Shown here: positions 5,503 to 36,848 of the stretch, in pieces
Numbering within the stretch: the stretch's first letter is position 1
Layout: the number at the start of each line of letters is the position of its first letter
Translations under genes and position numbers: made by a program
Source of the DNA: a virus
Reading direction: 5' to 3' (one strand)
Length of the DNA stretch: 36,848 nt
Virus record (IMG/VR): IMGVR_UViG_3300030102_001857
Coordinates: 1-36,848 of that record
Notes under the pieces: generated by a model
Seen by the model: only the letters and a program-made list of their open reading frames with translations
Databases searched by the model: none
Told to the model about the DNA's origin: nothing

Positions 5503-6959
5503 CTTCTGCCAAGCGTCACCGCGTCAACATCCACGCCAAGCGCATATCTCCAAGTGCCACTCGCGTTTACTCTAACCCTGTGGTAACGCCCATGTGTTCT
5601 GACCGGACAACTATTATCATCATTAATGCTTGATGCCGTTGTAAAGGTTGCCTTGTCTATCTGTCTGCTTCTAGAGCCAACTTGTACGTTAAGCGTAGGA
5701 GCCACATCCCTTCCCGTTACATATGGCGTTACACCTTTAATTAATGATTGCCGCATTGGTGCAGTTTCAAATTCTGACGTTTCCAAAACAGCATCTAACT
5801 GAGCACCAGTAAGCGTCTGTAGCTTTTTGTCTTTACTCGCGGATAATTGGAAAAAACCACCCGCGTATAAACTTGAATCAAAAGATGTTGTTAAAGCATC
5901 TAAACTAGAATTAAGATTATCCAACCCTTCAAGCGTCATATTTGGCGTAAGTGAATTACCCAAAAATTCATGATCAAGGTTTATTAAGGACCACTTTTGA
6001 ACCGCATAATTGTAAACTAGTATTTTATTAGGCTCTCCGGTGCTTTCTCTATCAGCATAAGACCACATAACAATCTGATTTTCAGGATCAATAGTAGAGC
6101 TTAGACGATCTGCAAATTTAAAATTCATGCTGTCAAAGAAAAACTTATCTACTTTCTCCGCACCAATAGGAATTGATTTAGAGCCATCAAAAAAGAAAAA
6201 CCCATCATCAGCTAAGTAAAAGACCTGAGTTGGGCCAAGTGAAGTCACAGAATTTGGATAATTACACCCATGCCCTGTTTCTACTTTTTCAAAAGTAAAA
6301 ATTAAAGGCGAACCAACATACTGCATACGAGCAATCGCTTTTTCTAATAAAACAACGCCAAACTCACCGCCGACTAATCCAGTAATATGCCCTGCATCAG
6401 CAATATCTTGAAAGTCAGCTTGTGCCGTTCCTAACGTCCAAGAATTAGCATCATTTATCTGTGACCAACGCACCCTTGAGCGATATGTAGCTGAAGAATA
6501 TGTAACGTTTGCTGTAACCACAAAGTCTCGAACAACCGCTAAATATTTTGCAGCCGGAGCACCAGAAATTGCAGAAAACGCTGAACTTGAACCAATTGTA
6601 AACTTTTGCAAAACATCGCTATCACTGCCACTTGCAATAACGTCATTGCCAAAACGCACAAACTTCCATTGCTCATCGGCTGAAAGGCTATAAGAGCCGC
6701 TTTTTACATCAGCTAACGCAAATGTTCCGTTATTCATTTTGTAAAGCTTGCCGGAGTCACCGACAAAAATAAAAATCGTATCGTTTGTATCTTTGGTGGC
6801 ATAAATGCCTCTAATGCGATTGTCAGCCGCTTGGCTAACTTCAGAAAGACCAAAGAAAGGTCTGTAGCCTCTTGCAGCGGGAATAACATTTGTAGCAACC
6901 GTAGACCCAGGATTTTGAAAATCCGACTGATCAGGTAGCCACTCACCAAAAGGTATCAT
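5499..6959 (-). CDS. P22 gp10-like tail nozzle / packaged-DNA stabilisation protein, 486 aa
   Basis: The protein starts MIPFGEWLPDQSDF, a signature of podovirus nozzle proteins, and continues as repeated beta strands with blade-like motifs such as GIYATKD, IFVGDSGKLYKM and WKFVRFGNDVIASG in residues 40-130. This fits a beta-propeller-like fold. P22 gp10-type proteins sit below the adaptor and close the portal channel after packaging. An ATG at 6959, overlapping the upstream stop as ATGA, is preferred to a GTG 12 bases earlier. The order capsid, adaptor, neck proteins, then this gene is the usual order for short-tailed phages. Confidence 0.65.
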   Translation of the reverse strand: MIPFGEWLPDQSDFQNPGSTVATNVIPAARGYRPFFGLSEVSQAADNRIRGIYATKDTNDTIFIFVGDSGKLYKMNNGTFALADVKSGSYSLSADEQWKFVRFGNDVIASGSDSDVLQKFTIGSSSAFSAISGAPAAKYLAVVRDFVVTANVTYSSATYRSRVRWSQINDANSWTLGTAQADFQDIADAGHITGLVGGEFGVVLLEKAIARMQYVGSPLIFTFEKVETGHGCNYPNSVTSLGPTQVFYLADDGFFFFDGSKSIPIGAEKVDKFFFDSMNFKFADRLSSTIDPENQIVMWSYADRESTGEPNKILVYNYAVQKWSLINLDHEFLGNSLTPNMTLEGLDNLNSSLDALTTSFDSSLYAGGFFQLSASKDKKLQTLTGAQLDAVLETSEFETAPMRQSLIKGVTPYVTGRDVAPTLNVQVGSRSRQIDKATFTTASSINDDNSCPVRTHGRYHRVRVNASGTWRYALGVDVDAVTLGRR

Positions 6960-7870
6960 TGATTCAACCACCTATCTGTACCCGCTGTGCGAGTGTTAAA
7001 TACCGCTGTAGCCGGAACTATATCAGTCCAAGCCTCACCCATTTCTTCCGCAATCGCCACACCCTCTATACTTAAATCAACTGACGCTGCATACGCGGCT
7101 TTGTAATTCACACCAGTAGTGGTGCTTCCGGTTATTGCAATTGTGTCAGTTGCCGCCAATGCAAATGTTCCCAAAACATTACCTGTGGCTGTTATAGCAA
7201 TGTTAGTAGTTCCTGATGTCTCCACAACTCGTGAGGACGCAACCGCTGTACCAGTAATTGTTATTGTCGCTGAAGCCGCAAAAGACTTAATTAATCCAAA
7301 TTCAAAAGACGTAATATTAGCAACACCACCCATGCCTGAGTGATTTGTGCAATAATAATGTAATGTGCTTGGCGTACTCGCAGAAACAGTTATCTCAGTA
7401 TAAGCGTTAGCCGTTCCTGGTGTGCCAGTTGTGGTAACGCCTGTGGTATATTCTGAACCACTATTATGAGAGCCATTGGCAGTAGTAGAAAACCGTAGCG
7501 GGTGGCCTGAGTTGCTACTATCAGACTGATCAAACCTATATGTGTTCCCGACTACAAGCTCTAATGTAGGACTCGCACCAGATAAACCCGCAATATAGTA
7601 TTTATTACCTGAACCATAAGAGTTAGTACCAGACGCAACGGTTACATCATAAACAACAGTGGTTGCCGCGTTTATCGTAATTAGTGCAGTTGCAGATACC
7701 GCCGCCGTAAAGTTAGCACTACCTGTGCCAGTAACAGCAATACTTTCAGCCGCTGCAACCTCGAATAAATTGATAGTATCAAGATATTCTAACGTGCCAT
7801 AAGCGTCTAAACTATCAAGCGTACCCCAAGTATCAAGCTGATCTAAACTAGGGCCAATAATTTCAGCCAT
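6956..7870 (-). CDS. Virion-associated protein with cupredoxin-like domain, 304 aa
   Basis: Residues 1-36 are LD repeats (LDTWGTLDSLDAYGTLEYLD). Residues about 40-70 and 190-280 are Thr/Ala-rich beta repeats of the ITITGTA type. Between them, residues about 73-188 look like a cupredoxin: a VVGNTYRFD strand, GHPLRF with H123, and HYYCTNHSGMGG with C174, H177 and M180. Together these give the His-Cys-His-Met set of a type 1 copper site, with C-x2-H-x2-M spacing. Known cupredoxins carry electrons; in a phage particle the domain may instead serve as a stable fold or a binding surface. It lies between the gp80-like and nozzle genes, so it is probably part of the neck, tail or capsid surface. Copper binding is inferred only from the residues. 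Confidence 0.6.
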   Translation of the reverse strand: MAEIIGPSLDQLDTWGTLDSLDAYGTLEYLDTINLFEVAAAESIAVTGTGSANFTAAVSATALITINAATTVVYDVTVASGTNSYGSGNKYYIAGLSGASPTLELVVGNTYRFDQSDSSNSGHPLRFSTTANGSHNSGSEYTTGVTTTGTPGTANAYTEITVSASTPSTLHYYCTNHSGMGGVANITSFEFGLIKSFAASATITITGTAVASSRVVETSGTTNIAITATGNVLGTFALAATDTIAITGSTTTGVNYKAAYAASVDLSIEGVAIAEEMGEAWTDIVPATAVFNTRTAGTDRWLNQ

Positions 7871-9261: not shown

Positions 9262-10206
9262 TTAACTTCCACTTAAACCAATAACCGCCGCATGTGCCTT
9301 GGGCGCTTTGACGATCAAAGTGTATTCGCTCACAATAGCGAATTTTGTGGCGTCACCAGTGGCGGCAACGTCACTTACGCTAAACATACGGCCTGGGAGG
9401 GAGCCTATGCAAACGTAATCAGTATCAATCAGATATACCTCTGAATTGTTAGCCTGACGGTCAATCGTTACAGCCAACTCACCAAAATCACTCAAATAAA
9501 GTGATACTGAGCCGACGATAGCAATATCGCGTGGTGCAGTGTAGTTTAACTGCGCTGAAGCAACTGAGCCTGATGATAGATCAGAAAAGTTCTGCTTATT
9601 TGTTGGTGACATAAGCAACATATTCGGGCTTCCACCGTCATTGTATGCAGCCAACATAGCAGCATCTATCTGAGCTAAAGTTAAAGCTCTAGCTGTACCA
9701 GTTAAATCAGCCACATCTGACCCATCACCAGTAGCAAATGCCATATCACTAGGCGCATCACCATTGGTAATCCAAGTGATAAGCTTCGCGCATTTACGCG
9801 GATCTGAGCCTGAACGAGCTTCATTGGCAAACAAGGATTTCTCTATATCGCGCCGCTGCTCAATTCCTTTGAGCACCTTAACGTATGCAGTTTCCTTATC
9901 ACGCCCCGCTTTGTCAACAACATCCAAAGTATTGGATACTGAAGCCGCTTGGACCGCGATTTGGTGGTGGTTGCCAAGTCGTGTTGTTACAGCGGGATTG
10001 ACGTATGAATAATCAGCACCTTCATTGGCGTGATTGTTCGCTGCCGCCGCTGCAAGCTCTTGAACTTGCCATTCGTGAAAGATACCTTTTGTGGTTTCTT
10101 TCTGTGAGTTTGAAACTAGTGGAGTTTCATCGGGATCAATCCTGTATATAACGTCAGATAGATCCTCTCGTTCTCCAATAGCTGTAGAGCTAGTATATGT
10201 AGCCAT
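9262..10206 (-). CDS. Major capsid protein, SU10/DUF5309 family, 314 aa
   Basis: The N-terminal part reads RIDPDETPLVSNSQKETTKG followed by HEWQVQEL, the typical start of SU10-like capsid proteins with the HK97 fold. Later motifs also fit: NHANEGADYSYVNP, RLGNHHQIAVQAASVS, EKSLFANEARSGSD, and a C-terminal YLIDTDYVCIG segment. The gene has the best ribosome site in the window and its own terminator, both expected for the most abundant virion protein. It follows the scaffold gene directly. No delta domain or protease gene is visible, so a separate scaffold rather than a cleaved prohead peptide probably guides assembly. Confidence 0.85.
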   Translation of the reverse strand: MATYTSSTAIGEREDLSDVIYRIDPDETPLVSNSQKETTKGIFHEWQVQELAAAAANNHANEGADYSYVNPAVTTRLGNHHQIAVQAASVSNTLDVVDKAGRDKETAYVKVLKGIEQRRDIEKSLFANEARSGSDPRKCAKLITWITNGDAPSDMAFATGDGSDVADLTGTARALTLAQIDAAMLAAYNDGGSPNMLLMSPTNKQNFSDLSSGSVASAQLNYTAPRDIAIVGSVSLYLSDFGELAVTIDRQANNSEVYLIDTDYVCIGSLPGRMFSVSDVAATGDATKFAIVSEYTLIVKAPKAHAAVIGLSGS

Positions 10207-22072: not shown

Positions 22073-22849
22073 CTAAAATGGAATTTCATCGTCCATATCA
22101 TTAGACGTTGCCGCCTGTTCCTGACCTTCTATTTCTAAATCAAAAGACGGTGGCGTGGGCGGCGTCGGTTGAGACAGTGGTTTTTCGCCGTAAATTTTTT
22201 CCGTCATGGTAGGTAATGGCTGTGGTTGAGCCATTGGCGTAGGCTCTTCAGTCGTAGTCGCTGTTTCTAAACTATTACTTGGTGCGTCTGGTTCTTTCTC
22301 AAAACCACCACCATAAATCGGATTTATTAATTGGATTTTGTCTAAATAAAGTTTGATGCCACCAATTTTGTCCTTACCAGGATTAACAGTACATAGCATA
22401 CTTAATTTTACACGTCCTGTTGAACCACCCCAAAAACTTACATCACTGACTATTTCACGATTTCCGTTTAATACTTCTGGTCTGCGAGTGGCATTACCCG
22501 CATTATTAAAACAGGGTTTACCCGCTGTGTATTGATACATGCCATGAATAGGATTTCCCTCAATATCTTTCCAAGGCTTTTCAGACCTAAAGAGCAACTG
22601 ACCTTCTTTTAATGGGGGCATATTATCTTTTTGTATCATGTCATTGTAATGAGCTAAACCAACCTCCCACATGGCTTTTCTTTGCTCTTCATCAAGTGTA
22701 AATACCACAGACCAAAAAGCATCCTTATCCGTTGATAAAGCTGCCTCATAGCCGTTCGCCTGTGTATATTTTTCTGGATATGCAATTTTCGGAAACTGAA
22801 GTTCCACAATCGGCGTAAAATGAGATTTAAACCTCTTAATTGTTTTCAT
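22073..22849 (-). CDS. Single-stranded DNA-binding protein, 258 aa
   Basis: The first 180 residues look like an OB-type fold with many aromatic and basic residues (FKSHFTPIVELQFPKIAYPE). A Pro/Gln/Thr-rich linker (about 195-240) and an acidic tip ending DMDDEIPF follow. The acidic C-terminal hook with a final Pro-Phe is the hallmark of SSB proteins, where it contacts partner proteins. The gene lies between the exonuclease and replication genes, as expected. The N-terminal half resembles phage gp2.5-like/DUF2815 proteins more than E. coli SSB. Confidence 0.7.
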   Translation of the reverse strand: MKTIKRFKSHFTPIVELQFPKIAYPEKYTQANGYEAALSTDKDAFWSVVFTLDEEQRKAMWEVGLAHYNDMIQKDNMPPLKEGQLLFRSEKPWKDIEGNPIHGMYQYTAGKPCFNNAGNATRRPEVLNGNREIVSDVSFWGGSTGRVKLSMLCTVNPGKDKIGGIKLYLDKIQLINPIYGGGFEKEPDAPSNSLETATTTEEPTPMAQPQPLPTMTEKIYGEKPLSQPTPPTPPSFDLEIEGQEQAATSNDMDDEIPF

Positions 22850-22861
22850 TATTTTTCTCCA

Positions 22862-23701
22862 TTATAGTTGAGTGTCCATCCATTCGGCGGGATGAAGCAT
22901 TGTAAAAGAGGGCCAACCAGTGCTGTAATCGCCTGTTTTTTCGGCCTCTTTTATTTCTTCCAACACATCGTCAAGACGCTCTTCGTAGATACGCATAAGC
23001 TCTTGCGACATGAGGAATAAATTGACGCTATGTGGGGCTTTCTTTTCCACCACAGCGAAAGCAAAATAGATGCATTGGATGCCTTCTTGTTCACAAACTC
23101 TTTTGTAAAAAGCGGCCTGTGTGCCGTAATGCAGATCTACAAACTGTCTAAAAAAGTTCTTTTCTGTTGGGATTTTACCAAACGTTTTGACATCCATAAT
23201 GATGCCTTTGTCTGTTGTGTAGAGATCTGGACGTGCTTTCAGTAGCAACCCTGTCTTTTCATCTATCGTATAGACACTGGCTTCTTTAACGGCTGTTTTG
23301 TTTCTGGCGATTTTACGAATATCTTTATGCTTCCATAGCGCTTTGGTCATTTGCAGCGCCTTGGCATATTCACCTTCCGGTAATAATATTACACCATCTT
23401 CTTTCGCTTGCTGATAATCTTCAGCCCACGCTTTCCCTGCCCTTGTTTTGTGCTTGCCTATTACAGCCTGTTTTCGGTTTTTGCCCTCAAACATAGCATG
23501 CACACCAGAGCCAATATCCACCACGCTTGGGCTGAGATCTTCACTAGGTTGACTTGCATGATATGGCGTAGTGGTTAGCCATTTTTTAACAAAGCTTGAG
23601 GATATTCCCTCGCTGTCGTGATATTCATTGTTGGTGAGATTGTGGAATATACCTGTCTTTTGCTTATATTGTCGTAGCCATTTATCTTTAGTTTCGTGCA
23701 T
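22862..23701 (-). CDS. RecE-like exonuclease, 279 aa
   Basis: The N-terminus FHNLTNNEYHDSEGISSSFV is the NxxYHxxxGIS start of phage RecE/exonuclease VIII-type nucleases (DUF3799 family). The PD-(D/E)xK core is visible: E140 (VKEASVY), D159 (KARPDLY) and D170-V-K172 (IIMDVKTFG). These nucleases resect 5' ends to give 3' overhangs for recombination and are often paired with a RecT-like annealase, which I do not see here. TAATG joins it to the upstream resolvase-like gene. Confidence 0.75.
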   Translation of the reverse strand: MHETKDKWLRQYKQKTGIFHNLTNNEYHDSEGISSSFVKKWLTTTPYHASQPSEDLSPSVVDIGSGVHAMFEGKNRKQAVIGKHKTRAGKAWAEDYQQAKEDGVILLPEGEYAKALQMTKALWKHKDIRKIARNKTAVKEASVYTIDEKTGLLLKARPDLYTTDKGIIMDVKTFGKIPTEKNFFRQFVDLHYGTQAAFYKRVCEQEGIQCIYFAFAVVEKKAPHSVNLFLMSQELMRIYEERLDDVLEEIKEAEKTGDYSTGWPSFTMLHPAEWMDTQL

Positions 23702-24300
23702 TATTCATCCTCATCTTCAGGATAAATTTTGCCGTGTCCGTCACAAATCTCGCAGACTATTTCACCACTTTTGTCACCATTTGGAAAAATGTCGAGATAT
23801 TCAGTAGAGGGGTGGCGTTTAACTACACCAAAACCATTACACTCTTTACAATCTATTGGTTTAACTTGCACGACAGGCGTTGTGTTTCTTAGTGGTGTGA
23901 TTGCCATTAGTTCACGCGCCAATGAACAGAACGCATCGACTGTCATACTGACGAGATCTGTGTTTTCATCCCAAGAGCCACCCACCGCCTTGGCAAACGC
24001 ATTTATTCTTATCACTGCTATGCTTGGTTGACGGTCAAAACGATATATAACGCAAGGATATTTGCCTACTCGATCTGCCGCACGTTGAGCTTGTTCTATC
24101 CAGGTTTGACTAAAACTACCCGCCATACGCCGCTTACATTCTATGACAAATGGGAAGTTTTCTTCTTCGCAGATTAGATCGCCATGATCAGCTTCTCTGT
24201 ATTGGTTTAGCTCACGTTTAAAGACAATCCCAAGATTATCAAATAAAGCTTTCTTTATTTCTGATTCGTACTGAGCGCCCTTAACCCGACTATTCACCAT
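23701..24300 (-). CDS. Resolvase-like PD-(D/E)xK nuclease with DnaJ-type zinc knuckles, 199 aa
   Basis: The ATG at 24300 overlaps the Cro-like stop by 11 bases; the longer open frame runs into that gene. NSRVKGAQYESEIKKALFDN starts the nuclease, with E12, D41 (ADHGDLI) and E54-C-K56 (VIECKR) as the likely active site. This resembles Hjc-like Holliday-junction resolvases of phages. The last 50 residues hold CKECNGFG and CEICDGHG, two CxxCxGxG knuckles as in DnaJ. Resolvase plus zinc knuckles is an uncommon pairing, and the zinc part may direct binding to branched DNA or a host protein. Confidence 0.65.
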   Translation of the reverse strand: MVNSRVKGAQYESEIKKALFDNLGIVFKRELNQYREADHGDLICEEENFPFVIECKRRMAGSFSQTWIEQAQRAADRVGKYPCVIYRFDRQPSIAVIRINAFAKAVGGSWDENTDLVSMTVDAFCSLARELMAITPLRNTTPVVQVKPIDCKECNGFGVVKRHPSTEYLDIFPNGDKSGEIVCEICDGHGKIYPEDEDE

Positions 24301-24550
24301 CGTACACCACCTCACCTCGTTGGGCGGCTTGGACAAGTCTTATGGCGTCTTGAATGTCATCTTTGATCGTGAGCCATGCTTCCACTGGCACGTCACCCTG
24401 CGTGACCTTTTGAATTTCCAAGGCAGTCACCACATTTGGTAGAACGTCACCGCTGATATAACGAGATAAGGTGGGTTGAGATACGCCGATTCTCTTGGCG
24501 AGTGAGGCTTGCGATACCTCTTTTGTGATCATATACTCAAATAACTGCAC
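24290..24550 (-). CDS. Cro-like helix-turn-helix regulator, 86 aa
   Basis: Residues 10-40, SQASLAKRIGVSQPTLSRYI, are a clear HTH of the Xre/Cro type; the C-terminal part is helical and acidic. It opens the leftward early operon and faces away from the repressor across 240 bases of AT-rich operator DNA, the standard arrangement of a cro-cI switch. It probably represses the repressor promoter after induction. Confidence 0.75.
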   Translation of the reverse strand: MQLFEYMITKEVSQASLAKRIGVSQPTLSRYISGDVLPNVVTALEIQKVTQGDVPVEAWLTIKDDIQDAIRLVQAAQRGEVVYDGE

Positions 24551-29208: not shown

Positions 29209-29685
29209 TCACCAACGCCCCTGCCACTTGCCTAAGAAGTAAAACAAAACAAACAAAACACCGCCACTAAGCACAAAAATAAATGCACCAATCGCAAAGT
29301 TTATTGCTGCGTCTATACGCTCTTGCTTTTTGTATAACTCTTGTTTTCGTCTACGCCGCATTTGAGCCTCAATCTGTAGAACCTCTTTCCAAGCACTCGG
29401 CCCATAGTTAAAACTGATATGGTCTTTTATCTCAGCCCTCATTTGTTCCATTTTTTTCTTGTTGGCAAAGATTTCTAATGCGGTTTCTTCATCGCTTCCT
29501 TTAAAGGTTTTTTTCCAAAAAGGTGGGTTTTTTTCACGCTCTTCTAAGTTGGTAAAATCAGAAAATGCTTTTCCCCATTGCGATAAAGTTCCCGACATTT
29601 CTTGAAGGTCTTTGCCCGTGCTAATTGCAGCTTTAAGCGTTTTATACGCTCCTGTTGCTAGGGCAACGCAACTTACTGGGTCCAT
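29209..29685 (-). CDS. Membrane-anchored protein common in marine phages, 158 aa
   Basis: MDPVSCVALATGAYKTLKAA leads into a long charged helix region (EMSGTLSQWGKAFSDFTNLE, then KMEQMRAEIKDHISFNYGPS). A basic stretch RRRRKQELYKKQERID follows, then a C-terminal membrane helix (about residues 128-150). The same size and pattern are widespread in cyanophages and other marine phages. Topology and neighbours suggest a role at lysis, or in the virion near the membrane. Confidence 0.55.
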   Translation of the reverse strand: MDPVSCVALATGAYKTLKAAISTGKDLQEMSGTLSQWGKAFSDFTNLEEREKNPPFWKKTFKGSDEETALEIFANKKKMEQMRAEIKDHISFNYGPSAWKEVLQIEAQMRRRRKQELYKKQERIDAAINFAIGAFIFVLSGGVLFVLFYFLGKWQGRW

Positions 29686-29863: not shown

Positions 29864-31324
29864 CTATGTCTTTACTAATAACTCAGTTGCAGAGATAGCA
29901 GTCCCTGCCAGTACACTTGGCGTTGCAGCCGTTGTGCCTATCGTTCCATCTGTCTGTACGAAATATTGTTGTCCGGCGGTGAGGCCAGATTGCTCATCAT
30001 TTACTGCACCAATAATATCTACAGTTGCACCCTTGGTGTCAGCTACAGCGCCACCTTTGGATATACCAATATAGTTTTCTGAGGTGAGGTTGAGAGTGTT
30101 TGGCTGACGCACTACAGATACACCGTTTTGAGAAGTAGTGTGGTCACGAAAGTTAAAAATCATTTTTGAATTATCGGGATCATAAACAAGATGGAAATCA
30201 TTAGCTTCCCCATCTGTATAAGAAACAGGTGTAGTGACAGTTGCACTAGTTCCACTTATTGTCGCACTAACAAAACGAGCCACATTAGAATTTGATCCAT
30301 CTGCTCTGTACGTTATATCTACTGTGCCTGTGCTTGTATTATATGCTGCATCATGTTGAAATGAACCTGTTCCAGAATCAATAACAACAGCGGAGCCAAA
30401 TGAAATACCTGTCCCTGAAACAGTTCCGACTTTTAGAGTAGCATAATCAGAATTTCCACTGTCTCTATATACAGCAAGAGTTTTGTTATTTACTGGATCG
30501 TAAGCTATGCCAAAATGTTTACTAATATTGGCATTTATAAGTTGTGTATCACTGCCAAAACTTACACTTGTACCACTTATTGTAGCAACTCTAACTGCAA
30601 CATCTGTCGTGCTACCATCACTTCTAAGGTATGCAAGAACAAATTTATTACTGCCAGTATCATACACCATTGATTGTTGTGTACCACTTTTACTACTCTC
30701 ATACTCTGCTTCGCTTCCAAAACTTACATCTGTACCACTTATTGTACCAACTTTAGCCAATCCTTTTGCGTTATCTTTAGCATAAATAACTAAAAACTTG
30801 CCATTATCAGGATCATACACGCAAGTTCGATGCCCAAAGCCAGTATTTATACTTGTTTGTACAGTAACCTCAGTGCCAAAACTAATAGAATTATCAGAAG
30901 AATTAACCGTAGCAACTCTAGCAAATACAGTGCTACTTGAACGATATGCTATTAAAAATTTTCCATTTGCTGTATCAAAATCAAGCGAGATGCTGTACGA
31001 GGAAGATGATTTAAATGTAGCTTGCGATCCAAATGTAATAGTATTATCACTATTAACTGTTCCTACAATAGCTTTACCTCTAGCACTATGATTAAGGTCT
31101 GTAAAAGCTACAACTAATCTGTTATTGGTGATATCGTATGCTGCTGCTAGAGGCTCAGGTGAACCACTTTCAAACTCCTGTTGCGCTCCAAACGATGCAG
31201 GTAAACCCGATATAGTACTCACAGTCCCATCAGCATTAACAATCACTGGCTTACCGCTTGGCAGTGTGCCACTGGCTATCGCTTTTAACTCACCACTCTC
31301 TTCAGCCCCTATACGTTTTAACAT
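29864..31324 (-). CDS. Seven-bladed beta-propeller virion protein, copy A, 486 aa
   Basis: An N-terminal module (IASGTLPSGKPVIVNADGTV) is followed by seven repeats of about 50 residues with the core YD-x-x-NNK-x-x-AY and TISGT-x-(V/I)SFGS, then a 70-residue C-terminal domain from LTSENYIGIS through LTAGQQYFVQTDGTIG. The seventh repeat lacks its last strand, and the N-terminal strand PASFGAQQEFES matches that part, so the ring closes in the velcro way of beta-propellers. Repeats are more diverged than in the other two copies. Likely a tail-fibre-tip or spike protein that binds a cell-surface ligand. Confidence 0.6.
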   Translation of the reverse strand: MLKRIGAEESGELKAIASGTLPSGKPVIVNADGTVSTISGLPASFGAQQEFESGSPEPLAAAYDITNNRLVVAFTDLNHSARGKAIVGTVNSDNTITFGSQATFKSSSSYSISLDFDTANGKFLIAYRSSSTVFARVATVNSSDNSISFGTEVTVQTSINTGFGHRTCVYDPDNGKFLVIYAKDNAKGLAKVGTISGTDVSFGSEAEYESSKSGTQQSMVYDTGSNKFVLAYLRSDGSTTDVAVRVATISGTSVSFGSDTQLINANISKHFGIAYDPVNNKTLAVYRDSGNSDYATLKVGTVSGTGISFGSAVVIDSGTGSFQHDAAYNTSTGTVDITYRADGSNSNVARFVSATISGTSATVTTPVSYTDGEANDFHLVYDPDNSKMIFNFRDHTTSQNGVSVVRQPNTLNLTSENYIGISKGGAVADTKGATVDIIGAVNDEQSGLTAGQQYFVQTDGTIGTTAATPSVLAGTAISATELLVKT

Positions 31325-31326
31325 GT

Positions 31327-32769
31327 TTAACCTTTCACAATAAGTTTAGTTGCCGATACAGCCGTCCCTGCAAAGACGCTAGGAGTAGCAGCCGTTGTAC
31401 CTAATGTGCCATCAGTCTGAACAAAGTAGCTTTGCCCTGCGGTTAGCCCTGATAGGTTGTCAGCTATTGCACCTTGCGTATCTATGATAGCCCCTGCACC
31501 AGAAGCTGCACCGCTACGAGATATGCCGATATAGTTTTCTGAAGTGAGGGTGGTAGAGTCTGGAGCAAAAGCGATTGCTGTGCCATAATTTGAATTGCCG
31601 TTATCTCTGTAAACCGTGACTACTTTATTACTATTACTATCAAAAGTGTTTTTAATGTAATTAGTTGTTCCAGTGTTAAAAGCAGTTGCACTACCAAAAC
31701 TTATAGACGTTCCACTTACTGTTCCCGCAACTATACTCGCTACGTTTGTGTCGGAGTTTAAATAGGAAACAACAACTTTATTAGAGTTGCTATCAAATTG
31801 CGGCGCAGGGTAATTTGTAGTAGCAGCGTTAAAAACAGCGGCACTTCCGAAAGTTATGTCAGTTCCACTAACCGTACCAACTACAGCCGTACCATGACTA
31901 GAACTGCCTTGATGCCTAAAAGTAATTACCACTTTGTTGCTGTTACTATCAAAAGTAGCACCATTATGTATGCCATAAGTGCCTGATAGGATTGAAGCAG
32001 TGCTTCCAAATGAAATACTTGTGCCAGATACTGTGCCTACAACTGCGCTCATCTTGTCGCCACCATCATAAGCAGAATAAGCTATGACTACTTTGTTAGA
32101 ATTACTGTCAAAAGCAACCGCAGGATATTCAATTTGATAGCTATGAAAAGCTTGTTTACTGCCAAAAGATATAGAGGTTCCCGATACTGTTCCTACAATT
32201 GCCGTGCCATCTTCGCCAGCAGGAACATCAGCAAACGCTATTACAATTTTGTTAGAATTAGTGTCAAAACCCATATCCATCCGTCTTGAGCTACCACTAT
32301 TAAAAACAACCTCGCTACCAAAACTAATACTTGTGCCGCTTACCGTTCCAACTATTGCGGTTCCATACTGAGAATTACCTGCGTCTGAATACGCTATTAC
32401 AACCTTATTTGAGTTGCTGTCAAAAGCGATAGAAACCCATGCGGACTCGCCAGAATTAAATACGACAGGGGTTCCAAAAGTAATAGATGAACCACTTACT
32501 GTTCCGACAACCGCTGTACCAGAAAAAGAATTATCTGCATCGTTATAAGCAACAACTACTTTATTTGAATTACTATCAAAAGTAGCATTTGTATAATTGA
32601 CTGACGCACTGTTAAAAACAGCCTCTGAACCTAAAGAGGCGCTTGACCCACTAATAATACTCACAGTCCCATCAGCATTTACAACAACAGGCTTGCCATT
32701 TGTCAGCGTACCACTAGCTACAGCGTGCTCTTGTCTGGGTACGCTTGGATCATTACCAATGATACGCAT
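31327..32769 (-). CDS. Seven-bladed beta-propeller virion protein, copy B, 480 aa
   Basis: The same layout as copy A but with very regular blades: FDSNSNKVV occurs six times (FDTNSNKIV in the third blade), and AVVGTVSGTSISFGS or close variants six times at about 52-residue spacing. The N-terminal strand ASLGSEAVFNSAS completes the seventh blade. The C-terminal domain is shared (SGLTAGQSYFVQTDGTLG). Such near-identical blades imply recent internal duplication or repeated recombination. Probable receptor-binding or surface protein. It begins 6 bases after the preceding 88-aa gene. Confidence 0.6.
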   Translation of the reverse strand: MRIIGNDPSVPRQEHAVASGTLTNGKPVVVNADGTVSIISGSSASLGSEAVFNSASVNYTNATFDSNSNKVVVAYNDADNSFSGTAVVGTVSGSSITFGTPVVFNSGESAWVSIAFDSNSNKVVIAYSDAGNSQYGTAIVGTVSGTSISFGSEVVFNSGSSRRMDMGFDTNSNKIVIAFADVPAGEDGTAIVGTVSGTSISFGSKQAFHSYQIEYPAVAFDSNSNKVVIAYSAYDGGDKMSAVVGTVSGTSISFGSTASILSGTYGIHNGATFDSNSNKVVITFRHQGSSSHGTAVVGTVSGTDITFGSAAVFNAATTNYPAPQFDSNSNKVVVSYLNSDTNVASIVAGTVSGTSISFGSATAFNTGTTNYIKNTFDSNSNKVVTVYRDNGNSNYGTAIAFAPDSTTLTSENYIGISRSGAASGAGAIIDTQGAIADNLSGLTAGQSYFVQTDGTLGTTAATPSVFAGTAVSATKLIVKG

Positions 32770-32775
32770 GATGTT

Positions 32776-33042
32776 TTACTCCCCACCCTCTTCAGCGTCT
32801 GGGTCTACCCAATCAGGGTTGGCTGTCCAGGTTATACCGTCAAAGAAATACTTGTTGCCTGTCCAATCTTCGGGTGCATTGGTTACATTGTCAGTCACTG
32901 TTACCGTTGTGCTATTGAGATCAGCGATAATAAACTGAGCCGGATCACCTACAGTGATTTCTGTTGCTGTTGCTGTTACATCTACATCGTCAGCTAGTAG
33001 ATATTTGCAAAGACCTGTTGATGTTTCTACAATAGTTTTCAT
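32776..33042 (-). CDS. Small beta-rich virion protein between propellers, 88 aa
   Basis: MKTIVETSTGLCKYLLADDV starts a Thr/Val-rich beta protein ending in an acidic tail (DPDAEEGGE). NKYFFDGITWTANPDWVDPD near the end resembles small marine phage proteins found beside fibre genes. Probably a fibre accessory or assembly protein; function unknown. Confidence 0.5.
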   Translation of the reverse strand: MKTIVETSTGLCKYLLADDVDVTATATEITVGDPAQFIIADLNSTTVTVTDNVTNAPEDWTGNKYFFDGITWTANPDWVDPDAEEGGE

Positions 33043-33045
33043 TGT

Positions 33046-34503
33046 TTAACCTTTCACTATTAGTTCCGTAGCTGATATAGCAGTCCCTGCTGTTACTGAA
33101 GTAGAAGCCGCTGTTAATCCTAGTGTGCCATCGTTTTGCACAAAATATGTTTGCCCTGCGGTTAAACCGCTTTGGTTTCTGTCTATTGTGTTTGTTGTGT
33201 TTATTGCAGCACTCTGTGTGTCTGCGTATGCACCGTCTGAGAAACCTATAAAGTTTTCTGAGGTAAGGTTAGTGCTAGTTGCCCCTGCTGTAATAACGGC
33301 ACTTAAATTATCATAGTCACTTGACCCCTTCATATAGGCAAGAACACATTTGTTGCTAGAGCTATCAAAACAAAGACGGCTATAAAAGGGATTAAACGCA
33401 GCAAATTGTGTCTCTGTTTGACCAAAAGTTATGGAAGTTCCACTGACTATTCCAGTAGTAAAGTTACCTGCTGAACCACCGTCTGAGTAGGCAATTACAA
33501 TTCTGTTTACGTTACTGTCAAAAGCAGCCCCTACATGAGACGTTGTTGCTGCATTAAATACAACTTCAGACCCAAAACTTATAGATGTACCTGATACAGT
33601 TCCTACTATTCCAGTTCCATAAGAGGAGTTTCCACCGTCAACATACGTTATAACAGTTTTTTGTGCGTTGCTGTCGTACACTACATTATTATTAGTTGTA
33701 CTAGCAGAAGAGTTAAAAGTGACGGCACTACCAGAGGATACACTTGTACCAGAAACAGTTAAAACACTACACTGACCACCGCTACTATTTCGGTAAGCAA
33801 CTACTGCTGCACCTGCGCTTGCATCAAAACCTATGCTAGTAGAAAAGATAGATGTGCTTCTAAAAGTGTGTTCACTGCCAAAACTAATTGACGTTCCTGA
33901 CACAGTGCCGACACAAGCCACACCATAATTGCTATTACCTTCATCACGATAGGCTACAATAACCTTGTTATTAGTAGTGTCTGTACAAACAACCGCCCCT
34001 TCACCAGTGTTTCCACTGTTAAAAACAGCAGCAGTTCCAAAAGATATAGACGTTCCTGACACAGTGCCAACTATTGCTTCGCCTTGTGAATAACCATCTC
34101 CATAAACAATTACAATTTTACCATCAATAAAAGTAGCAACATTATGTTGATTACTACCAACTTGGGTTTGGGCAGAATTAAAAACAACAGGAGAACCAAA
34201 GCTTATGGAAGTTCCTGACACCGTTCCAACCACTGCTGTACCATAACTGCTATTTGCTGCGTCTTTGTAAACAATGACCACTTTGTTATTGGTGCTGTCA
34301 TAAACTATTGCAGCCGTTACGCTGCTGCCATTTTTATCTGCCTCATAACTAGCAGAAGACCCTATTGCTTGAGTTTGTGACGTTTCACTAACAACACTCA
34401 CAGTGCCATCAGCGTTCACAATAACAGCAGTGCCATCAGTCAAAGCACCAGAAGCGACTGCCCTGACCTGACCATCTTTTGCAATATTACCAAAAGCTTT
34501 CAT
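33046..34503 (-). CDS. Seven-bladed beta-propeller virion protein, copy C, 485 aa
   Basis: A third paralogue. Seven blades with VGTVSGTSISFGS cores and conserved Tyr/Asp positions, the N-terminal ALTDGTAVIVNADGTVSVVS module, and the shared C-terminal domain (NFIGFSDG through LTAGQTYFVQNDGTLG). Several blades differ from copy B mostly in the loops between VVFNS and the next YDS, which would form one face of the ring. Conserved core with loops that differ is what selection for ligand binding would produce. Confidence 0.6.
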   Translation of the reverse strand: MKAFGNIAKDGQVRAVASGALTDGTAVIVNADGTVSVVSETSQTQAIGSSASYEADKNGSSVTAAIVYDSTNNKVVIVYKDAANSSYGTAVVGTVSGTSISFGSPVVFNSAQTQVGSNQHNVATFIDGKIVIVYGDGYSQGEAIVGTVSGTSISFGTAAVFNSGNTGEGAVVCTDTTNNKVIVAYRDEGNSNYGVACVGTVSGTSISFGSEHTFRSTSIFSTSIGFDASAGAAVVAYRNSSGGQCSVLTVSGTSVSSGSAVTFNSSASTTNNNVVYDSNAQKTVITYVDGGNSSYGTGIVGTVSGTSISFGSEVVFNAATTSHVGAAFDSNVNRIVIAYSDGGSAGNFTTGIVSGTSITFGQTETQFAAFNPFYSRLCFDSSSNKCVLAYMKGSSDYDNLSAVITAGATSTNLTSENFIGFSDGAYADTQSAAINTTNTIDRNQSGLTAGQTYFVQNDGTLGLTAASTSVTAGTAISATELIVKG

Positions 34504-34517
34504 AAGATTACTTTCTA

Positions 34518-34880
34518 TTAAGCGTCATCAATCTCTTCATATGAACAAACAGCGGATAGATCTCCCGCTGAACTTGCTTGTATTTTGAGTATGTCACCCT
34601 CAACCAAGTACAGCCCCATATTTTTATCTATGGGTAGCAAGGTGCTATCAGCCGAAACTGTGATTGTTTTAGCAATGTAATAATCCACACCAGATCGTGT
34701 AATCCAAACCGATATATCAGCCGAATTAGTGCCATCTATGTTGGCTATAATTAATGAATTTATCTTTAATAATTTATTTGATGCAGCGGTTAATAAACTA
34801 ACTGCACTTGCAGCAACATCAGCATCTACGGCTGTATTAGCATAAATACTGCTTACTGCGACTACATTTGGATTTGCCAT
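34518..34880 (-). CDS. Small beta-sandwich virion protein, 120 aa
   Basis: Hydrophobic strands alternate with Thr/Ser turns throughout (KLLKINSLIIANIDGTNSAD, then SVWITRSGVDYYIAKTI), ending in an acidic tail. I recognise the type from phage structural clusters near fibre genes. It could cap or connect fibres. No catalytic motif. Confidence 0.5.
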   Translation of the reverse strand: MANPNVVAVSSIYANTAVDADVAASAVSLLTAASNKLLKINSLIIANIDGTNSADISVWITRSGVDYYIAKTITVSADSTLLPIDKNMGLYLVEGDILKIQASSAGDLSAVCSYEEIDDA

Positions 34881-34895
34881 TGAAAAACTCCTTTA

Positions 34896-35219
34896 TTATC
34901 CAAATACCATTGCCATAGCTATGGCTTTTCCAGTTGTTGCAGCATTGTTTAACTGCGTTTGAATTGACGATGTAACACCATCAACATAGTTTAATTCTGT
35001 TCCGGTAGCTGTGATAGTTACCCCACCAACTTTAAATGCTGTGAAGTCTGGGCTAGTTAGCGCAACTGTACCCGCGTCCACGTCTTTCAGATCAGCCATA
35101 AGCTCCCTGATTGCGTTATTTATACCGGATGGAGCGCAACCCTCGTCTATGTCCACCGATTGAATATCAGTATTGTTTGCCGCTGTAGCATCAAACTGAG
35201 TGATATTGTTTTTAGCCAT
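34896..35219 (-). CDS. Fibre-anchor-like virion protein, copy 2, 107 aa
   Basis: MAKNNITQFDATAANNTDIQ, then a helix with SGINNAIRELMADLKDVDAG, then beta repeats including ATGTELNYVDGVTSSIQTQL. In other phages this segment begins long tail fibres, with the early helix attaching to the tail and the TGTELNYVDGVTS repeat entering the shaft. Here it ends after 107 residues, so the fibre is either split among several genes or reduced to its base. A near copy begins at the left window edge. TAATG links it to the ejection gene before it. Confidence 0.6.
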   Translation of the reverse strand: MAKNNITQFDATAANNTDIQSVDIDEGCAPSGINNAIRELMADLKDVDAGTVALTSPDFTAFKVGGVTITATGTELNYVDGVTSSIQTQLNNAATTGKAIAMAMVFG

Positions 35220-36848
35220 TATTCAAATTCCTCTTCTAGTAATTCTGAACCGTCAAATATTCCCGCTTGCACCAGAACAGCGTTTAGCCTTTTGTTTCGT
35301 GCAGCTTTTAGTTTCGCAGTAGTGGGTCTTTCCAATAAATCAGCCATTAACTTTGGATCTTTTATTGCTTCAGCGAGAATTGTTTTAACTCTTAACTTTG
35401 GCATTTTTTCAAAGGCGTTTTTCGCAGTACGAACCCCTGCCCCTGCCAAGACCAATGGAGTACCCGCCGCCTGTCCTAGCGCACTGGAACCGCCTAAGTT
35501 CGCGCCACCTATTCTTAATAAAAGATCAAAGAATATATCTTCTTTGCCCAATAAATTTTCAAACTGATCTGTGTTCGCCAATGCACTTTCAAACTCTTTT
35601 GTCTTGGCAATTAAACGATCAACATTTTTCATTTGCTGTGAATTAAACAAACCATTGACCATTAATGTTTGTCTTACAGTCTGATTACCTGTTTTCGCGT
35701 TTAACAACTGATCAAGTCTAGTACCGGAGATCATGCCGCTTGAAGTTGTTGCATTGTCTAATAGCGTTTCATAAACGCCATAACGCAACCCATCCAACAC
35801 ACTTGGATCACCTGATTTCTTAGCAAGTCTAGATACGTCTTTGATACCACCCGCAACATCACCAGAACGTAAAACTCTATTAATAAACTCATTTACGTTG
35901 TTTGTGCCTAATACCTTGGCTGTGGTAGACTTTGTTCTTGCAAACTTAGTACCCTGTAAAGACTGATCTGCCACTCTTTCAGCTAATCTTGCCGCTTGCT
36001 CAGTGCTCGTAAACGTATCTGTTAATCCCAAATCCTGTATTGTCTGAGCGTTGGATCTAATGAAGTTATCAAGTTTTTGCGGGTTTACGGACCCATCATA
36101 GTTTGTAGCGTCACTCGCAAAAGATTGTAAAAATCTTTGCTGCAACTGCATCATATCACCAGATTGATCACCCGCTGCATTTCGTAACGCTTGCAGATTA
36201 AGTAAAGTTTGCTGATCTTGCCCACTTCTCGCAACGTCTAGCGTTCTAGTAGGATCAACAGTTATACCCCCATCACGATCAAAGCCTAGTGTTTTCCCTA
36301 CAAAACCTTGAGTAAACTTTTTGTTTAGCTCTCTCGAAAACTCTCTCGCTGTTTTAGCTATATCACCAGTGACCGGATCTAAGTCTTTCAACATTGCATC
36401 AGCAACTTGGGAATACATTCTTGCGTCACCAAATTTGCTTTGCGCCCTAGCTTCTCTAGCAAGTTCTAAATAACGGCTTCTAGTCCTTAACAGGTTGCCA
36501 GTTGTAGTCTCACCCTTACCAAGCTTTTTCTTTTTCTGGTCTTTCTTAATATCTTTTATAACTGCTTTCAGTGGTGCGGGTAACTCCTCACCAGACGCAA
36601 GAGAAGCTTTTACGTCATTAAATGCTTCAAGCGTATTATCGGCCCTCACCGTTAAATCACGTTTCACACCGGACCAAAGTTGGTTTTCCGTTTTTCTTGC
36701 TGTAACAAGTGCGCTTTCTACTATGTCTCTAGCTTGCTTGTTTATCTGAGCACGATCAACATTAGGCATATTGGTTGCCTGTAAATCTTGCGCCCTTTTT
36801 GCAGCGGTTTTTACACGTTCATCTAAAGATTGTACTAAGTAGTCTTGT
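35219..36848 (-). CDS. Large ejection-type virion protein (partial, 5' end outside window)
   Basis: The reading frame stays open to the window edge, adding at least 26 codons (QDYLVQSLDERVKTAAKRAQ and onward) upstream of the first ATG at 36769, so the true start lies outside. The visible part, about 542 residues, is charged and helical, with a Lys-rich stretch (KDIKKDQKKKKLGKGETT) and a Gly/Ala segment near the C-terminus (GGANLGGSSALGQAAGTPLV) that could enter a membrane. This fits the C-terminal part of a very large podovirus ejection protein; a lytic domain could lie in the missing part. Confidence 0.6.
   Translation of the reverse strand, partial: QDYLVQSLDERVKTAAKRAQDLQATNMPNVDRAQINKQARDIVESALVTARKTENQLWSGVKRDLTVRADNTLEAFNDVKASLASGEELPAPLKAVIKDIKKDQKKKKLGKGETTTGNLLRTRSRYLELAREARAQSKFGDARMYSQVADAMLKDLDPVTGDIAKTAREFSRELNKKFTQGFVGKTLGFDRDGGITVDPTRTLDVARSGQDQQTLLNLQALRNAAGDQSGDMMQLQQRFLQSFASDATNYDGSVNPQKLDNFIRSNAQTIQDLGLTDTFTSTEQAARLAERVADQSLQGTKFARTKSTTAKVLGTNNVNEFINRVLRSGDVAGGIKDVSRLAKKSGDPSVLDGLRYGVYETLLDNATTSSGMISGTRLDQLLNAKTGNQTVRQTLMVNGLFNSQQMKNVDRLIAKTKEFESALANTDQFENLLGKEDIFFDLLLRIGGANLGGSSALGQAAGTPLVLAGAGVRTAKNAFEKMPKLRVKTILAEAIKDPKLMADLLERPTTAKLKAARNKRLNAVLVQAGIFDGSELLEEEFE

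Follow-up and report, generated by a model that had tools for sequence, protein, structure and literature searches.

The window, by which we mean the whole 36.8 kb virus record IMGVR_UViG_3300030102_001857, carries three tandem paralogous genes that probably make up an adhesin module, with β-propellers swapped whole by homologous recombination. Across related loci, whole propellers change places among the three gene positions, and DNA identity switches abruptly at the borders of the propeller. The module and its immediate neighbours, in window coordinates, are as follows.

34896..35219, minus strand: 107-aa protein, fibre-like in sequence (MAKNNITQFDATAANNTDI...TGTELNYVDGV)
34518..34880, minus strand: 120-aa protein, upstream of the three propeller genes in 87 loci
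33046..34503, minus strand: copy C, gene position 1, 485 aa, scaffold plus one seven-bladed propeller
32776..33042, minus strand: 88-aa ORF, kept alongside the module in 87 loci
31327..32769, minus strand: copy B, gene position 2, 480 aa, scaffold plus propeller
29864..31324, minus strand: copy A, gene position 3, 486 aa, scaffold plus propeller

An earlier note on this DNA had described three seven-bladed paralogs, and its description proved exact in coordinates and strand, with seven blade matches of ~52 residues in each of A, B and C. With a blade HMM built from B alone, A reached 114 bits and C 226 bits, compared with best scores of 7.0 bits (A) and 1.1 bits (C) among 200 shuffled controls each. 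Full-length identity among the three proteins is 44–52%; none has a Pfam or PHROG family above cut-off, and a phmmer search with B returned no PDB sequence match up to E 10. Whole-protein Pfam matches (WDR35/TULP, Cyclophil_like2, Agenet) fell below the cut-offs and were judged chance or generic. Blade-to-blade identity in the core is 0.66 in B, 0.48 in C and 0.35 in A, the last near the low end of the family (median 0.53), while loop identity between blades is 0.15–0.20 in all three alike, meaning that copy B is 'almost uniform', as had been claimed, in its blade core and not in its loops. Between blades, silent differences have almost saturated (0.63, where independence would give 0.68), suggesting that the B propeller is old and kept uniform by selection, and ruling out recent blade amplification in B.

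Outside the blades, the proteins share conserved ends, which in B numbering are residues 1–41 (..ASGTLTNGKPVVVNADGTVS) and 405–480 (LTSENYIGIS..GLTAGQSYFVQTDGTLGTT..AGTAVSATKLIVKG). Judged from sequence, these ends form one split scaffold domain, with the propeller as an insert in its first loop; what had been taken for a shared C-terminal domain is indeed conserved, but is really a split domain that includes both ends. In copy B, the scaffold corresponds to window positions 32647–32769 (aa 1–41) and 31330–31557 (aa 405–480), and the propeller to 31558–32646 (aa 42–404). Copy C has its split scaffold at aa 1–41 and ~410–485 and its propeller at aa ~42–409 (33277–34380), and the propeller of copy A also spans aa ~42–409 (30098–31201). 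The proposal that three different surfaces are built on one scaffold is therefore supported, the A, B and C propellers all being held on the conserved domain. The A-1(L) neck fibre gp82, considered as a scaffold relative, was rejected as too weak a match (E 1.9 only).

Structure prediction confirmed the expectation of closed seven-bladed rings for B at the level of the model, and by homology to B the same fold would extend to A and C. The AlphaFold2 model of B, based on 45 homologs, has a mean pLDDT of 87.5 (~95 over residues 50–400) and a pTM of 0.81. Complete seven-bladed rings from the PDB align to its residues 41–406 with Z of 28–33 and rmsd of 2.5–3.3; the match to YncE has Z 32.8 and rmsd 2.5 over 306 aligned residues, and the BP39L and PLL/PHL lectins reach Z of ~29–32. 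For the velcro closure described in the earlier note, with the N-terminal strand completing the last blade, the pertinent observation is that the B propeller also occurs inside the second scaffold loop of a protein in locus L010, far from any protein N-terminus, which implies that residues from about 42 onward suffice to close the ring; the N-terminal strand of the protein is thus not required in such self-contained copies. In a modelled 14-blade protein, the second half likewise closes into a complete ring (Z 33.8 over 424–779); with its low pTM (0.49), the model says nothing on the mutual placement of the two rings.

We surveyed the family in marine metagenome assemblies from IMG/VR, in a set of 141 loci corresponding to 107 non-redundant contigs. 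The 246 distinct family proteins include 203 complete ones, 122 with the layout N[7]MC, 40 with N[7]M[7]C, and the rest spread over a few other layouts. Counting with the blade HMM in the 183 complete proteins that could be assigned to a gene position gave 7 blades in 127 and 14 in 44 (171/183), and the remaining 12 had counts of 0, 2, 6 (L038), 8, 12, 13 or 15 (8, 12, 13 and 15 in single cases), some of which, from a check by hand of part of them, are probably miscounts of weak or split blades. In 14-blade proteins the second whole propeller usually occupies the second scaffold loop, which is filled in about a quarter of relatives; in the alignment of relatives of about 840–870 aa, the second seven blades lie between LTSENYIGMS and the next scaffold strand. 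Other arrangements also occur: a propeller in the second loop only (L019, L035, L140), an unrelated insert in one scaffold loop (L010 gene 2, L014 gene 3), a second propeller ahead of the N-terminal scaffold piece (L008), and a 127-aa protein with both loops empty (L038). Where the contig permits, the module almost invariably comprises three tandem genes, with the 120-aa gene upstream; the 88-aa ORF separates genes 1 and 2 or, in an alternative layout, follows gene 3. A complete triple carries 2–6 propellers, mostly 3 or 4.

Several individual loci depart from this pattern. In a protein of L014 (9494–11758), the sequence filling the second loop matches SMP-30/gluconolactonase (PF08450, 2e-6), so that another propeller family apparently occupies the same landing site. 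Gene 1 of L038 (8001–9284) has six nearly identical blades and a neighbour (9519–9902) without any propeller; blade loss, recent amplification or assembly collapse are possible origins of this six-bladed gene. A fourth propeller gene lies downstream of the triple in L012 (5495–7630, 711 aa) and L104 (at 11087, 697 aa), with a ~190-aa N-terminal extension, and is possibly a fibre to which the module is anchored.

With the propellers excised, 9 of 10 bare scaffolds used as queries matched at least one member of a trio of cement/minor-capsid Pfam families, compared with 0 of 10 reversed or shuffled controls. The best scores (PF23982 5e-4, PF09956 1.6e-3, PF22758 4.5e-3) all miss the curated cut-offs (best 20.3 bits versus 27; PF09956 19.2 versus 24), so that the likeness to such proteins, including XM1 gp53, E217 gp24 and Pam3 gp6, is a lead and not membership. 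It suggests an alternative in which a cement-type split scaffold would sit on the head and display the propellers, letting the virion adsorb weakly to surfaces or glycans, and in which the three paralogs might form a heterotrimer. In phage lambda, gpD forms trimers at the three-fold axes of the head. XM1 gp53 and TW1 Dec, likewise trimers on three-fold axes, offer a precedent for such decoration (PMC10457771). However, a profile of 29 scaffolds found no cement protein among its matches in the PDB, and we found none among known cement proteins with propellers in two loops; the match of this profile to PLL3 (0.0004) reflects a 22-residue pattern with no stretch significant alone. The genomic contexts described next also argue against a place on the head, and we consider capsid decoration unlikely.

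In two relatives, a long fibre-like protein ends C-terminally in propeller plus scaffold. L032 (6315–9398) encodes a 1,027-aa protein with an N-terminal Mtd_N domain (2e-13) and fibre-like repeats ahead of a propeller plus scaffold, and L142 (7460–14512), on a contig that binning assigned to a marine Euryarchaeota MAG, encodes a 2,350-aa protein in which four propeller-plus-scaffold units follow a fibre-like N-terminal part. The only cultured homolog, the distant propeller protein gp49 of Lentibacter phage ICBM2, precedes gp48, a protein with a C-terminal Phage_tail_APC domain (tail assembly chaperone gene), in a region that its authors called variable and tail-fibre-related (PMC6775973). The 88-aa ORF is 41% identical to residues 1–78 of ICBM2 gp48; it has no Pfam match and hence lacks the Phage_tail_APC domain, sharing only the N-terminal part of gp48.

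Foldseek matches of the propellers include sialidases and a pseudaminidase, which would fit glycan hydrolases or lyases of a sialidase-like kind that clear a path to the cell. Yet a search of the propellers for the sialidase Asp-box found none, and the invariant columns in 45 homologs consist of Gly, Ser, Thr, Val, Ala and Leu only, with no invariant catalytic-type residue; apart from the turn Asp of each blade, no acidic, basic or tyrosine residue is conserved as a candidate. These absences favour binding over hydrolysis, and an enzymatic role appears quite improbable. Many sugar-binding sites contain tryptophan, unlike these propellers, in which it is nearly absent (0–1 per protein), a point against the adhesin reading.

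The minus strand of the window carries genes for large terminase, portal, scaffolding, major head and ejection proteins, and the window also codes for integrase, repressor and endolysin; this gene set points to a temperate short-tailed phage, of podovirus type. The closest TerL and MCP matches are to Phage C72C1 (54–56%). For host assignment, a family search of MAG contigs returned only two marine matches, both labelled Euryarchaeota, which may be misbinned viral contigs. The 120-aa protein has homologs in marine phages, one bearing the annotation 'putative lectin', and the 107-aa protein is without a match in the libraries, although relatives of its gene stand before the 120-aa gene in many loci. 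Within the head gene cluster, an ORF at 6956–7870 has tail-fibre PHROG matches (phrog_30742, 9e-28), and phrog_30742 likewise matches an insert in L120 gene 3.

Bases 1–121 of the window are a 90% copy of 35123–35243, the start of the 107-aa gene. An ejection-type gene lies at 97–1698, as in L004 and L011, and a different one at 35219–36847, as in L045; these look like two versions of a single locus. The contig is therefore probably not a fragment carrying both genes but one whose ends meet at a site that varies between strains. Past the module, a 158-aa ORF (29209–29685) is 99% identical in L045 and 39% in L011, unlike several other L011 genes that are 91–98% identical to the window, and is possibly a second exchanged locus.

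Three further genes of the window are those of homologous recombination.

22073-22849, minus strand: Gp2.5-like ssDNA-binding/annealing protein
22862-23701, minus strand: exonuclease VIII
23701-24336, minus strand: RusA-like resolvase

This phage-coded set (22073..24336) is a possible machinery for the exchange of cassettes. Together with the fibre-like proteins, the ICBM2 context and the lack of catalytic residues, it leads us to propose an adhesin module with plug-in propellers. We infer a place in the virion for the proteins, receptor binding by the propellers (on the circumstantial basis of a hypervariable locus, the fold and the gene context), and the assembly of the three scaffolds into one structure.

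To follow scaffolds and propellers separately, gene position was set by gene order and spacing, independently of sequence, and the nearest scaffold relative was taken at <90% identity from another locus. The scaffold neighbour came from the same gene position in 156 of 158 cases. For propellers, 47 of 82 nearest neighbours (at least 70% identity) lay in the same position, with 0.34 expected by chance, and 14 of the 43 clusters of shared propellers (at least 80% amino acid identity) covered more than one position. The B propeller of the window recurs at position 2 (L005, L009), at position 1 (L006/L007), as the second propeller of the L008 position 1 protein and in the second loop of the L010 protein, which is at position 3. 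The DNA of L006 gene 1 is 75–88% identical to copy C across most scaffold segments and 93–100% identical to copy B throughout the propeller, switching sharply at residues ~41 and ~420, and further pairs behave alike. Conversely, L045 has most flanking genes 93–100% identical and scaffolds 85–87% identical to those of the window, while its same-position propellers are 31–45% identical, the level of unrelated propellers, and its position 2 holds a C-like propeller (68%). The earlier note had suggested comparing blade number between related phages and looking for recombination; what is seen is whole-propeller exchange, with a blade number of nearly always 7 or 14.

That note had also put forward blade recombination as a possible source of diversity. 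Blades are repeats with a common core sequence, the nearly identical blades of L038 gene 1 would fit recent copying, and in L103/L134 identity drops within the propeller, possibly through rare internal recombination. However, a search for blade-level exchange (at least 90% DNA identity over at least 90 bp) found none: 49 pairs share the whole propeller, over >900 bp, and the 2 partial sharers both have propellers cut by contig ends. Given also the near-constant blade numbers and the near-saturated silent sites between blades, this claim was not supported, and we regard blade-level recombination or amplification as a very improbable driver of diversity. That the swaps are instead chimeric metagenome contigs joined at conserved scaffold sequence is likewise very improbable, even though all data are IMG/VR metagenome assemblies, in which repeats can produce chimeras, and even the window was joined by the assembler at a variant site: the same chimeric gene 1 protein occurs in L006 and L007, from separate datasets, swaps are seen in 14 clusters, genes with a swapped propeller retain, over the whole scaffold, the sequence type of their own gene position, and two in-frame assembler errors per gene would be required. 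The swaps were presumably made by homologous recombination rather than by assembly error.

Sequence variation within the blades is concentrated at loop columns 8–18 and 31–38, the positions of highest entropy. These loops follow the first and third strand of each blade and, assuming alternating strands, would lie on the same face. Compared at equal pS in three identity bands, within which pair counts are not independent, pN/pS was 0.38 in loops versus 0.14 in the core, 0.45 versus 0.17, and 0.55 versus 0.24. The loops therefore change faster than the rest, in keeping with the loop-biased substitution that had been anticipated, yet within each cassette they are under purifying selection and not hypermutated. 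Diversification by a retroelement was likewise rejected, as the earlier note had expected: reverse transcriptase (PF00078) was absent from the window's own record (0/1) and from 36 related records (0/36), mostly fragments, in searches whose controls matched.

By structure, the best-matching functional class is that of the Photorhabdus PLL/PHL and Burkholderia BP39L lectins, which share the closed seven-bladed fold and repetitive blades. In contrast to those lectins, the module propellers are phage-encoded, attached to a scaffold and almost devoid of tryptophan, with 7–12% identity in structural alignments and no significant full-length sequence match. In tailed phages, tail-fibre tip exchange swaps the receptor-binding end by recombination. 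The module resembles this in that recombination replaces what we take to be the receptor-binding end between conserved parts, and differs in that the unit is a complete closed ring in a domain loop, at three paralogous positions and doubled in some genes. As in the DGR-diversified Mtd of BPP-1, whose Mtd_N domain is present in the relative L032, a display surface is altered on a constant scaffold, but here by domain replacement, with no reverse transcriptase and with loops under purifying selection. Known phage receptor-binding propellers include the five-bladed phi11 Gp45 and PRD1 P2 and the seven-bladed phiKZ gp131C (PDB 4GBF) (PMC4901313). The module propellers would, like these, form the distal part of a phage adhesion protein; unlike them, they have no PDB sequence match (with B as query), belong to three tandem paralogs with interchangeable propellers, and are inserted in a small scaffold domain instead of following a stem. 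Highly repetitive β-propellers amplified from single blades show a continuum of blade numbers and ongoing amplification, and WD40-type propellers peak at 7 and 14 blades (PMC9218822). The family shares their sequence-similar blades and these two peaks, but its counts are almost only 7 or 14 and its blades are old.

In the adhesin mechanism that we propose, each gene encodes a conserved scaffold domain, split in sequence, with a complete seven-bladed propeller in loop one, which follows VNADGTVSVV; about a quarter of relatives have another in loop two, which follows LTSENYIGIS. The variable hairpins, two from each blade and all on the same propeller face, would most likely bind host surface glycans or proteins, and the three scaffolds, retaining their gene positions, would probably build a defined fibre or spike. 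Specificity would shift mainly by replacement of whole propellers, through recombination anchored in conserved scaffold sequence on either side, with point changes in the loops as a slower route under purifying selection. One phage may plausibly recognise several receptors, as the earlier note proposed. A tentative extension, to which we would give somewhat less than an even chance, is combinatorial recognition free of reverse transcriptase, in which three non-interchangeable scaffolds in one spike would each carry one or two plug-in propellers drawn from a common pool of large size, giving a lineage two to six specificities that are re-sorted by whole-propeller recombination.

The exchange of receptor-binding domains between phages is already known. 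We found no published description of a three-gene propeller module in the open-access literature, to which our search was confined. What is exchanged in this module is a ring that is physically closed and exactly bordered, with blades in multiples of seven, and its three landing sites are kept across more than 100 marine contigs. This makes two open questions testable, namely how binding changes without retroelements, and what the unit of adhesin evolution is. Since no Pfam or PHROG family covers these proteins, many marine phage adhesins are probably labelled hypothetical.
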